Origin: a virus
Length of the DNA stretch: 32,264 nt
Reading direction: 5' to 3' (one strand)
Virus record (IMG/VR): IMGVR_UViG_3300009593_000070
Coordinates: 1 to 32,264 of that record
A program made the translations under genes and the position numbers. Under the pieces are notes generated by a model. That model was not told the DNA's origin. It did no database searches and was given only the letters and a program-made list of their open reading frames with translations. Below, piece after piece: positions 554-4,659 of the stretch (within the stretch, counting starts at the first letter, position 1; every line of letters starts with the position of its first letter).

Positions 554-763
554 ATGAGTTATTCCAAGTACGAGACCTACTCGGTAGGTAAAATTACATT
601 CGCAGATTATGATATCTACAGAACAGAAGATTGTAAGATACAATTAGATTCAGAGTTAACTCTTGATACCTTAACACAAGGTAATTGGAAAGAGGGTGAC
701 CACATTCTAGTTGAAGTGGATGATGATTCTTTAGTCACCTTTACTAAGGTTAATGTAGTGTAG
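554..763 (+). CDS. Small acidic protein of unknown function
   Basis: A 69-residue acidic protein with alternating hydrophobic and polar residues suggesting a small beta-rich fold. It has no cysteines, no membrane segment and no family I recognise. AGGAG at 541-545 is a good ribosome-binding site 8 bases before the ATG. It appears co-transcribed with the basic protein just upstream. Its last 14 bases overlap, tail to tail, the end of the tape-measure gene on the opposite strand, so no terminator separates the two converging units. Confidence 0.6.
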   Translation: MSYSKYETYSVGKITFADYDIYRTEDCKIQLDSELTLDTLTQGNWKEGDHILVEVDDDSLVTFTKVNVV

Positions 764-2708
764 AATGGATGTGATGGTTTGCACGACTGTTTCTATGTGC
801 AGTACCAGTTGCAGCAAAGTTCTTTTGTACTCTCATCTGATTTGATGTAGGTACAATTTGTGTCACTACATTATTGACATTTTCTGCTTTACCACCACCT
901 TTTACATCAAAAGTTGCACCAGCAGTAGTTGGACTTGCACCAAAGTTTAGAGTTATATTCTCAAAGTCATCAATTTGTTTGACAAATGATTTTAGTTTAC
1001 TAGAATCTAAGTCTTCAAGACCAGCTGATATACTGTTAACACCAGCACCTAAAGCAACCATATTTGAACCCAGATGAGGGTCTACGAATTTGATTTTTGC
1101 AAGGGATGCTAATTGGTCAACACCAGACTCACCAAATAAACTCTTAAGTAATCCATCTTTATTCTCTGGTAATTCAAAGTCTGCCATTGCCTCTTTGATT
1201 TTGGTTATGTTATCTACAAAGGTATCTGTTTCCATGTCCATGAATGGTTTAACTGCACTTGCAAATCCAGCAACATCTTGACCCATATCAGTAAATGGTG
1301 TTGCATCACCTTTAAACCAAGATAAGAATCCAGCAAAAGAACTTTGCATAGATGCACCAAATAACATATCGACACTATTATTGAACTTTTCAGTATCAAT
1401 GTCCATGAATCCACTACCATTGATTGCATTTGCAAATCCAGCTGCATCTTCACCTAGTTTTGTATATACATTTGAATCGCCAGGTAATAGGTCTATCAAT
1501 CCAGCAATTGAATTAAGGACAGATGCACCAGCCAACGCTGCAAGACCAGCTGCAACCTTAACCATGTCTATCTTTTCCATCCTCTCAAGGGAGTCATTTG
1601 CACCAGTTTCTTCAAACGATGCAATCCCATTTGCAAATCCCTTCATCAATGCACCAATAGCTGCACCAGCACCTAATCCAACCAATGCAATAAAGCCTGC
1701 AACACCAGCACCTAATAAAAGTAGACCCGCAGCTGCAAGTGCAGATGCAGTCACAAATGCTGTCATCGTCGCAGGATTAAATATTGGTGCAGTTGCACCT
1801 AGTGCTGCAGCTCCAGCAGCAGCTTCAAACAATCCACCATCACCTTCACCTTTTTCACCTTTATCAACATCTGGTTCATTGAGTCCACCAGTTAAACTTG
1901 ATTGAGGAGCAATGAATGCTTTTGCATCTCTTCTTAAGTTATCCTCTAACTCTTTGTTCTGCATTTTGTTAGAGTCTGCATTTTGCTTTTCTACCTTCTT
2001 CTGGTGTTTTCGGTCTAATTTTCTTTCCCTTCTCCAGATAATGAAGTTTGCAATTTGTTTCTTGATTAAATTACCAGCAAATTTTGCTATAGTACCAAGG
2101 AATGGTAGGTTTTGTAATGCACCAGCAGCAGGCCCTAGGAATGCAGTAACTTTATCAAAGTCACCTCTTAAGTCTGCACCAAGGCCTTGCCATGGTTTAT
2201 TAAGTGCCGATTCTTTGTCACGATTTTGTTCTAATAACTTTTCAACCCAATCTTTCGAAAAGAACATAAGACCTTTTTCCATTGAAGAAAGATTCCTACC
2301 AAACTTACGCATGTTAATCATATTCTCTTCATCATATTGGAGTTGCTTGAGAATAGTGCTATCCCTTGCAGTTAACCCACCAAACTCTTCTTGTAAATCT
2401 GTCAGTCTTTTTTGTTCTTCTTGATTTGCTTTCAACATCTTATTGGCAGATATTCTTAGGTCTGCATCATCCTCAGAATAACCAAGTTGCATTAACCCAA
2501 GTTTATTTTGTAATGCTTCCTCATCTTCGGTTGATGCACCACCTTCTTTCAGTGCTTGCTTAAAAGCTTTAACAGTATCCATAGAAGATTGAGATTTGGT
2601 CTCAGCAACCAAAGTATCCATCTTAACACTAAGTGTTTCTAACCACTTAGCTTGGAGTTCCATTGTTTCTTGTTGAGCTTTCTTTTCGCTATCTGTTAGT
2701 TCTGCCAT
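750..2708 (-). CDS. Tail tape-measure protein (gp29-like)
   Basis: A 652-residue protein with the build of a tail-length tape measure. The N-terminal third is charged and helical or coiled-coil (about residues 1-280). A long Ala/Gly-rich hydrophobic stretch with two membrane-like segments lies at about 290-370. The C-terminal part contains diverged repeats of a GxDxAGFAxA type (about 420-500). Tape measures occupy the tail-tube lumen, set tail length and are ejected with the DNA. T4's equivalent, gp29, is about 590 residues. It is the last gene of the leftward operon, and its position after gp26 with the -1 extension matches the usual chaperone-then-tape-measure order of long-tailed phages. 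No SD is visible. A degenerate late-promoter box sits 5 bases before the ATG. Confidence 0.8.
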   Translation of the reverse strand: MAELTDSEKKAQQETMELQAKWLETLSVKMDTLVAETKSQSSMDTVKAFKQALKEGGASTEDEEALQNKLGLMQLGYSEDDADLRISANKMLKANQEEQKRLTDLQEEFGGLTARDSTILKQLQYDEENMINMRKFGRNLSSMEKGLMFFSKDWVEKLLEQNRDKESALNKPWQGLGADLRGDFDKVTAFLGPAAGALQNLPFLGTIAKFAGNLIKKQIANFIIWRRERKLDRKHQKKVEKQNADSNKMQNKELEDNLRRDAKAFIAPQSSLTGGLNEPDVDKGEKGEGDGGLFEAAAGAAALGATAPIFNPATMTAFVTASALAAAGLLLLGAGVAGFIALVGLGAGAAIGALMKGFANGIASFEETGANDSLERMEKIDMVKVAAGLAALAGASVLNSIAGLIDLLPGDSNVYTKLGEDAAGFANAINGSGFMDIDTEKFNNSVDMLFGASMQSSFAGFLSWFKGDATPFTDMGQDVAGFASAVKPFMDMETDTFVDNITKIKEAMADFELPENKDGLLKSLFGESGVDQLASLAKIKFVDPHLGSNMVALGAGVNSISAGLEDLDSSKLKSFVKQIDDFENITLNFGASPTTAGATFDVKGGGKAENVNNVVTQIVPTSNQMRVQKNFAATGTAHRNSRANHHIHSTLH

Positions 2709-2713
2709 AGTAG

Positions 2714-2721
2714 TATTTATC
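2714..2721 (-). promoter_or_regulatory. Late-promoter-like box abutting the tape-measure start codon
   Basis: On the minus strand this reads GATAAATA followed by CTACT and then ATG. It differs by one base from TATAAATA and, including the downstream bases, closely matches the perfect promoter at 31049. By T4 spacing the start of transcription would fall on the A of the ATG, giving a leaderless message. There is no SD here. The box is inferred from sequence alone. Confidence 0.4.
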
Positions 2722-3104
2722 TATTTTTCTGCGTTAGTTGAATGTTCTTTAGCTGCACTATTAACATATAGTCCAAACCATGCTGCTCCAGCACCTACCA
2801 GAATACTGATAAGACCAGATTGTTCCATTGAAGGTTCTGGTAATTCCATGAACCAAATAGCTGCATAGTACACCAAGAATATGTAAACACTTAAGAATGC
2901 ACGAGGCCATATTCTCCATGCGTCAACTGTTCTTGCAAGGTGTACCCACTTTTGCCAAGGGTTCACTGTATCGTTTGCTTTAAGGTCTCGTATCTCATCT
3001 TTAAGGGCACCATTCTCTTGAATCATCTCCATAAACTTCGATAAGTCCATTTCGACTTCGTTTCGACTCATGTCTCCACCAAATCTATCTCTATTGTCAC
3101 TCAT
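2721..3104 (-). CDS. Small two-span membrane protein (holin-like candidate)
   Basis: 127 residues: a charged N-terminal half with a short heptad-like segment (about residues 17-45), then two hydrophobic stretches, about 68-90 (FLSVYIFLVYYAAIWF) and 98-114 (GLISILVGAGAAWFGLYV), and a short polar tail. The topology suits an inner-membrane protein with both ends on the same side. Proteins with this PRAFLS and GAGAAWFGLYV style are frequent in marine phages. Some phages keep holins near tail genes, but a structural role cannot be excluded. AGGAG at 3112-3116 provides a good ribosome-binding site. It sits between the -1 extension of gp26 (12 bases upstream) and the tape-measure gene (12 bases downstream). 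Confidence 0.65.
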   Translation of the reverse strand: MSDNRDRFGGDMSRNEVEMDLSKFMEMIQENGALKDEIRDLKANDTVNPWQKWVHLARTVDAWRIWPRAFLSVYIFLVYYAAIWFMELPEPSMEQSGLISILVGAGAAWFGLYVNSAAKEHSTNAEK

Positions 3105-3116
3105 AATACTCTCCTA

Positions 3117-3305
3117 TTATTTATTTTGAGCCTGTTTAGATTGCAACTCTTGGTCTTCAAGGTGTTGCAATAGTAAGGAAATGTATATTTCCCTTTCCCA
3201 TGGATACATCGAGTCCAATTCTGTTAATGACCAACCATGATGTTGGATTAACCCAAAGTTAGTTTGTATGTAGTTTGCTAGTGTCTCATGAGAAAGGGCT
3301 ATACG
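3117..3305 (-). CDS. -1 frame extension of gp26 (GT-type tail chaperone domain)
   Basis: After the gp26 stop, the -1 frame stays open from the slippery site to the TAA at 3117-3119 and encodes 62 residues. They include a protein-like helical segment (HGWSLTELDSMYPWEREIYI, then SLLLQHLEDQE) resembling the T-type second domain of tail-assembly chaperones and the hub assembly protein gp51. No ATG, GTG or TTG occurs near its beginning. The first ATG lies inside the WERE helix and has no ribosome-binding site, so independent translation is unlikely. A -1 shift at 3305-3311 would join it to gp26 residues 1-241, giving a 303-residue fusion. The coding character is seen in the sequence. The frameshift is inferred from analogy with lambda G/GT and P2 E/E'. 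Confidence 0.7.
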   Translation of the reverse strand, partial: RIALSHETLANYIQTNFGLIQHHGWSLTELDSMYPWEREIYISLLLQHLEDQELQSKQAQNK

Positions 3306-4027
3306 AAAAAATTCTGTAACCCTTCTAGTGTTTGTTGTTGTCTTAAACTACACTCTTCACACTCGTAATCTACTTTATATACCATCTTTGGAACTGAACC
3401 AAACCAATCCATCATAATATTGAACTGGTCAATTTGAAGATTGTCAACGAAGTCATTTACTTCTTTGGCGGTAAATTCATGAATTTCATGAACTTCTTCA
3501 CCATCAAATACTTGAATAATACATCTATTCAAGACTTCAAAAAGATTGTTGGTCACATGACCTTCACCTTCAGCATCTGCATATATCTCTTGCATATCAG
3601 TGTAACTTGGAAACCTTAAAACTACACCAACATCATCTGTTAGCATAACTCTATTGTCTCTTAGTTCACCTTCAATCTCCATCTTATCAAACTCAATCTC
3701 AATTGGGGTATGTCCATCACAACTTTGTTTCTTACATCCCAATCTTATTTGAGTAGTTTCACCTACAGATTTCATTCTTATTTGTACAAATAACCATTCT
3801 AAATCTGTATTGGATAAGTCTTCTACTTGCCAGTTATCAGCTTGGAGTTCTGCACACGACTCTATCAATCCTATCAATGAATTGGCAATCCCTTTCGTTT
3901 GCCCCTCTTCTAATGCTTGTAACAAAATCTTTTGTTCCTTCACATTAAAAGGTCTATACTTCACTTCTATTTGTGATATCGGTAGTGTACCAAAGTACTC
4001 CACTGAATTTAATTTAGGTAATCCCAT
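3299..4027 (-). CDS. 26: Baseplate hub / tail-assembly chaperone gp26-like
   Basis: A 242-residue protein matching the T4-like gp26 baseplate family by length (T4 gp26 is about 208 residues) and by features such as the N-terminal EYFGTLPISQIEVKYRPFNV segment and an acidic central region. Four cysteines occur as one CKKQSC pair (about 99-104) and one CEEC pair (about 225-228), a possible metal-binding arrangement. In T4, gp26 is needed for hub assembly. Its gene lies between the gp54-like tube gene and the tape measure, and its last codons form a slippery heptamer, so it probably acts as the G-like short form of a tape-measure chaperone pair. AGGAG lies 8 bases before the ATG. Confidence 0.75.
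   Translation of the reverse strand: MGLPKLNSVEYFGTLPISQIEVKYRPFNVKEQKILLQALEEGQTKGIANSLIGLIESCAELQADNWQVEDLSNTDLEWLFVQIRMKSVGETTQIRLGCKKQSCDGHTPIEIEFDKMEIEGELRDNRVMLTDDVGVVLRFPSYTDMQEIYADAEGEGHVTNNLFEVLNRCIIQVFDGEEVHEIHEFTAKEVNDFVDNLQIDQFNIMMDWFGSVPKMVYKVDYECEECSLRQQQTLEGLQNFFV
3305..3311 (-). other. Putative programmed -1 ribosomal frameshift site
   Basis: On the coding strand the gp26 codons read AAT TTT TTC GTA TAG, so the heptamer T-TTT-TTC has the X-XXY-YYZ layout with both tRNAs able to re-pair one base back. It lies one codon before the stop. P2 uses the near-identical T-TTT-TTG in its E/E' shift. After slipping, the frame reads CGT ATA GCC and remains open for 62 codons. No strong stimulatory stem begins 5-9 bases downstream. 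The closest clear hairpin is at 3231-3246. Confidence 0.65.
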
Positions 4028-4047: not shown

Positions 4048-4659
4048 TTAGCCGAAGACTGCATCCTCAACTTTTCTTCTTACCTTATTCTCTAGTTTAC
4101 TTATGTGTTTATCCATAAACCCAGTAATTAAACCATCTTGTTTTGAGTTCAAGAACTCACTTTCCCAGAATCTATAACGAAACTGAGCATTAAACTTTTG
4201 TACTTCTGAATTTGCATAACCAAAATTGACAACACCTAATTGCACTGGAAATGCATCGGTCATTATACATCTATAATTGACACCATCTGTATTATCTAAT
4301 GCTTCTAGATATATCAGTCCAGTATAATCATCATGGTATCTACTATGGAAATTTTGACTAGAACCACCATTCATAGTACTCATCCATAACTCAATCAACT
4401 CTCTATCTTCCATATCGTTGGTTAAATAGAAAGAACAATCAAATGCATCGTATTGTGGTTTATGTACTATTGCTCTCTTCGGGCCATACTCTGAATCTTC
4501 TACTGCAAAGAATCCTTTGCCAGGCAAAGCTGCAGTTTCACATCTAATTCCTCTTATTGCAAGTCCACTGTTCTTACCACCAGTACCAAAGAAAGATACA
4601 TTGTATCTATTTGCTCTTTGTAGATTGTCTATCTGTGCTTTAAATCTATCTATTCTCAT
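4048..4659 (-). CDS. 54: Baseplate tail-tube initiator gp54-like (tube-fold protein)
   Basis: A 203-residue protein of the tail-tube fold: an N-terminal segment binding neighbouring subunits, a central FDCSFYLTNDMEDRELIELW segment typical of tube proteins, and a C-terminal beta strand with FRYRFWESE. In T4, gp48 and gp54 stack on the hub and start polymerisation of the gp19 tube. T4 gp54 is longer, about 320 residues. The other tube-initiator gene, gp48, starts at 5728 on the opposite strand, which favours gp54 over gp19 for this one. A main tube protein gp19 cannot be fully excluded. Its ATG overlaps the stop of the upstream gene by 4 bases (ATGA), indicating translational coupling. Confidence 0.65.
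   Translation of the reverse strand: MRIDRFKAQIDNLQRANRYNVSFFGTGGKNSGLAIRGIRCETAALPGKGFFAVEDSEYGPKRAIVHKPQYDAFDCSFYLTNDMEDRELIELWMSTMNGGSSQNFHSRYHDDYTGLIYLEALDNTDGVNYRCIMTDAFPVQLGVVNFGYANSEVQKFNAQFRYRFWESEFLNSKQDGLITGFMDKHISKLENKVRRKVEDAVFG

Follow-up and report, generated by a model that had tools for sequence, protein, structure and literature searches.

We analyzed a 32,264-nucleotide stretch of DNA from a marine relative of phage T4 (IMG/VR record IMGVR_UViG_3300009593_000070, positions 1 to 32,264; hereafter the window) and find that comparative sequence evidence gives good support to a predicted tail-assembly chaperone (TAC) pair of the G/GT type, in which the product of gene gp26 would be extended into a longer second protein by -1 frameshifting. 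Textbooks already describe conserved -1 frameshifting in genes for tail assembly, as in lambda G/GT and P2 E/E′. A sequence-only reading of this DNA had proposed such a pair at gp26, and the slippery heptamer, the -1-frame domain and homology with phage T4 gp26 and gp51 all favor that proposal; we infer slippage, its frequency and the chaperone function from these comparisons.

The gp26 gene lies on the minus strand at 3299..4027 including its stop codon, follows an AGGAG ribosome-binding site and encodes a zero-frame protein of 242 aa that matches PF12322 (E 1e-46) and phrog_150 (E 3e-47). Its 3′ end reads CAG AAT TTT TTC GTA TAG, which places the slippery heptamer T-TTT-TTC (3305..3311, read on the minus strand from 3311 to 3305) in canonical phase three bases ahead of the gp26 stop. 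Beyond the heptamer the -1 frame remains open for 62 codons, from 3305 to 3120, and ends at a TAA stop at 3119..3117. The encoded C-terminal domain (3117..3305 on the minus strand with its stop; RIALSH...QNK) matches phrog_634 (gp51, described as 'baseplate hub assembly catalyst') at E 2e-24, and a weaker match links it to the C terminus of phrog_150, so that both parts of the locus fit the T4 gp26/gp51 family (PF12322, phrog_150, phrog_634). The sequence-only reading had the coordinates and phase of gp26, the heptamer and the 62-codon frame right; the strand is minus.

In the mechanism we propose, gp26 would be the short form (TAC-N, comparable to lambda G). On reaching T-TTT-TTC, immediately ahead of the gp26 stop, a minority of ribosomes would move back by one base. 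The slip would add the 62-residue C domain to give a 303-residue long form (TAC-NC, comparable to lambda GT), with a predicted gp26/extension junction of ..LQNFFRIALSHE... A coat around the tape-measure protein is the probable role of the short form, while the long form, made less often, probably uses its C domain to bring in tail-tube subunits; in T4 the corresponding short and long products are encoded by separate genes, gp26 and gp51. We consider it very probable that gp26 is the short chaperone and the -1 slip product the long form, with the roles given here.

Conservation of the slippery site, the -1 frame and the protein family

Taken alone, the site is weak proof, because a 62-codon open frame is expected by chance in ~1.4% of cases at window composition and the word TTTTTTC is no rarity in the window (5 occurrences versus 10 expected). 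What separates the signal from chance is conservation of the heptamer in relatives, the match of the 62 residues to phrog_634 and coding constraint on the -1 frame. The comparison drew on 178 gp26 loci, taken from IMG/VR and from named phages; clustering gp26 below 60% identity gave 69 clusters. Comparison of the gp26 ends finds both the heptamer and the -1-frame protein conserved: an in-phase T6N heptamer is present in 176 of the 178 loci and in 69/69 clusters, mostly 0 or 3 bases ahead of the gp26 stop, and the same domain of 56-69 residues follows in the -1 frame after every heptamer among the loci collected. The heptamer takes the form T6T in 32 clusters, T6C in 31, T6A in 4 and T6G in 2, and occurs in Kyanoviridae, Emdodecavirus, Menderavirus, Innesvirus, Schizotequatrovirus and Ceceduovirus, and also in Angelvirus and Ishigurovirus.

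Substitutions bear out the protein-like content that the sequence-only reading had seen in the -1 frame, alongside its phrog_634 match. Compared with DNA-diverged relatives, changes at -1-frame codon positions 1/2/3 number 7/5/18, 10/2/21 and 6/4/17, a third-position excess, and 362 close pairs of loci together show 3109/1440/7178 changes at these positions. No complete locus carries a broken -1 frame.

Profile comparison with T4 revises one part of the sequence-only reading, which had suggested that T4 gp51 is a now-separate second domain. T4 gp26 (208 aa) and T4 gp51 (249 aa) both match PF12322, and T4-type gp51 aligns through residues 7-198 to the gp26 profile (hhalign E 4e-11) and through residues 207-245 to the extension profile (E 5e-7). 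Because gp51 aligns to both profiles, we assign T4 gp51 as the long N+C form and T4 gp26 as its short paralogue. The expected match between the extension and gp51 is found, but gp51 as the extension alone is ruled out, since it spans a gp26-like region and the C domain as a full-length paralogue.

AlphaFold models were compared with solved structures for window gp26 (pLDDT 90) and for a T4-type gp51. VIA-align ranks 2ob9_A, the tail assembly chaperone of HK97, first for the gp26 model (Z 7.0, rmsd 4.1, 83 residues; next match 4.7), a resemblance that supports, short of proof, a chaperone fold for the modeled gp26. The second-best match is PDB 5ir0, ORF19 of a Vibrio cholerae PICI-like element whose function is not known (Z 4.7, low); judged from the model, this phage satellite may carry a chaperone-like fold.

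Folding tests compared the 75 nt after the junction with synonymous shuffles, and structure is enriched only over codons 2-27 of the extension (mean z -1.5), with z ~0 further downstream and about -0.3 to -0.6 within gp26. Cyanophages (60 sequences; loci L024-L092, alignment columns 13-43) have an 11-bp covarying hairpin that starts 5 nt after the heptamer and shows 35 doubly changed cells versus 12.5 when shuffled (0/500). Its covariation score exceeds those of all slid controls; with RNAalifold alone, just the core of the hairpin is recovered. This hairpin is present in most, not all, cyanophage loci, and strong stems occur in some other lineages. We rejected an upstream Shine-Dalgarno (SD) stimulator as a candidate, the invariant GG at -11/-10 being accounted for by a conserved Gly codon.

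The neighboring genes, likewise on the minus strand, include a tail-tube-like gene of the gp54/tube family upstream of gp26 (4048..4659; phrog_45 tail tube, E 2e-26). A candidate tape-measure protein of 652 aa is encoded at 750..2708 and is assigned by position and length. Contrary to the sequence-only reading, it does not directly follow the chaperone locus, and a 127-aa ORF with hydrophobic segments intervenes (2721..3104, read from 3104 to 2721), which is preceded by an AGGAG ribosome-binding site and matches phrog_10198 (E 8e-21), a family whose function is not known. Phage HTVC008M has a similar-sized hydrophobic ORF at the same position, without significant similarity to the window ORF.

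Alternative explanations and exceptions

Fixation of the heptamer might be ascribed to the gp26 protein, with a conserved Phe-Phe holding the heptamer in place and the -1 frame a decaying remnant of a once-fused gene. The Phe-Phe pair is indeed conserved, T-rich codons are common and TTT makes up ~69% of Phe codons, yet the third base of the preceding codon is T and the first Phe codon is TTT in 69/69 clusters, for which the joint synonymous chance is ~1e-30 under each gene's own codon usage (a figure that assumes independent clusters, which these are only in part). The second codon may be Leu TTA or TTG with the heptamer kept, and downstream changes obey -1-frame coding constraint in a frame that is intact throughout the complete loci. 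These observations reduce the probability of a decaying remnant to almost nothing. A separate gene 51 with its own start, its translation re-initiated after or coupled to the gp26 stop, is how many public records annotate the domain. In the window, however, start codons first appear in the -1 frame at residues 30 (TTG) and 33 (ATG), both inside the conserved domain and without SD, so that for this contig the sequence-only reading was correct in finding no usable start and no ribosome-binding site; gp26 and the 127-aa ORF, unlike the 62-residue domain, each have an AGGAG site. No start codon lies near the junction in 34/69 clusters, the window's included, and an SD-like motif occurs in 2/69; in HTVC008M the start given in the record would truncate the domain. 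A stand-alone gene would also leave the synonymous-site conservation of the heptamer and the covarying hairpin unexplained, and the domain is fused to a gp26 domain in T4-type gp51 and in locus L064. In its favor, three named phages (L185, L186 and L187) have a correctly phased TAATG or TGATG overlapping the stop of gp26, and in Vibrio phage D493 (L189:2417-3330) a gp26 relative without the T6 heptamer has a TAATG stop/start overlap, with a diverged C domain encoded in the -1 frame. In L185, L186 and L187 re-initiation could act in addition to frameshifting, and D493 is a candidate for re-initiation in its place, while for the 62-residue domain a separate gene 51 is highly improbable.

It is also conceivable that gp26 and its extension are produced by frameshifting yet act as baseplate hub-assembly factors and not as tape-measure chaperones. 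We consider this unlikely, given the published reassignment of these proteins as tail-assembly chaperones, as cited in PMC10885494 and PMC12846349, the two-product slippery-site architecture typical of tail-assembly chaperones, and the HK97 chaperone as the best VIA-align match of gp26. Several observations nonetheless weigh against a frameshifted tape-measure chaperone pair. The window clade has no downstream structure in the folding tests (z -0.15 and -0.3), and anti-SD pairing measured against synonymous shuffles gives no upstream SD enrichment (median percentile 0.475). An ATG near the junction in 13/69 clusters, not the window's, means that re-initiation is also allowed there. The 2ob9 match is modest (Z < 8) and is seen weakly by Foldseek (E above 0.1), and the T4-type gp51 model neither recovers it nor gives an informative PDB match. 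The tape-measure assignment is affected as well, since the 652-aa candidate has no clear family match in profile searches and its similarity to the putative HTVC008M tape measure is not significant.

One further arrangement is found in a 236-kb cyanophage-like contig (L064:2001-2891), where a single fused frame of 297 aa encodes both gp26 and the gp51 domain and the heptamer region has lost two bases. That record holds no second gp26 copy, and none is present within the 32-kb window record, itself a fragment of a genome; L064 is either a third, long-only arrangement or a sequence or assembly error. Tentatively, and with somewhat less than even confidence, the loci may form a natural series of a translational switch retuned and lost, in which the heptamer is fixed across T4-like phages, the stimulator changes by lineage, the T4 branch has dropped frameshifting for two paralogues, and L064 perhaps retains the fused form only.

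Annotation and comparison with known systems

Cyanophage records often annotate the -1 domain as a separate gp51, and others leave it out with heptamer and -1 frame intact, as in ACG-2014d and ACG-2014i (L226, L227). The view that ordinary annotation misses this small gene is accurate for records of the latter kind and fails for the many cyanophage records that list a stand-alone gp51, a status that is probably wrong. Cyanophage gp51 has been described as having ~20% of the T4 gp51 length and as lacking the first ~200 residues of the T4 protein (Sullivan et al. 2010, PMC3037559), a shortness that is explained if this small ORF supplies just the C domain of a frameshift product. Under this interpretation, the proteins named 'baseplate hub subunit' and 'hub assembly catalyst' across hundreds of genomes of marine phages form a single chaperone pair. 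Large Aeromonas Straboviridae also have the heptamer (phages PX29 and 65; L228, L229), and the PX29 record lists the C domain as a hypothetical protein with no name.

Work by Vladimirov, Gautam & Davidson (2022, Virology 566:9-15), as cited in PMC10885494 and PMC12846349, had identified the T4-like tail-assembly chaperones (TAC-N/TAC-NC), and to judge from these citing papers they are the same proteins as those described here; the chaperone pair at this locus is therefore no new discovery. PMC12846349 (2025) credits the same study with poly-T slippery sequences in T4-like TAC-N genes, and PMC10885494, again citing it, reports that some T4-like phages replace frameshifting with two genes, one short and the other long and fused, the pair that T4 gp26 and gp51 represent in our analysis. 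With T4-like chaperones and poly-T sites already in print, the present gain is one of breadth and detail and includes no new principle. Within the limited literature accessible to us, which covers Vladimirov et al. 2022 through the papers citing it, we did not find the covarying cyanophage hairpin or the extent of heptamer fixation in print.

A close likeness is with the gp26/'gp51' loci of Kyanoviridae (P-SSM2, P-SSM4, HTVC008M, Mosig), which share the gene order, the T6N heptamer and the -1-frame domain. They differ from the window in a gp26 that is ~31-34% identical, in the covarying hairpin present in most cyanophage loci and missing from the window clade, and in records that give the domain a gene of its own. 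Phage T4 differs further in having two genes on opposite strands, with no slippery heptamer at the gp26 end, whereas its proteins compare directly, gp26 with the short form and gp51 with the long N+C form. Compared with the chaperones of lambda, P2 and HK97, gp26 is about twice as long, and a sequence search of solved structures detects no similarity to solved chains. The likeness to lambda G/GT, P2 E/E′ and HK97 gp13 lies in the architecture, a short and a long form through -1 slippage near the stop codon, which for gp26 is predicted.
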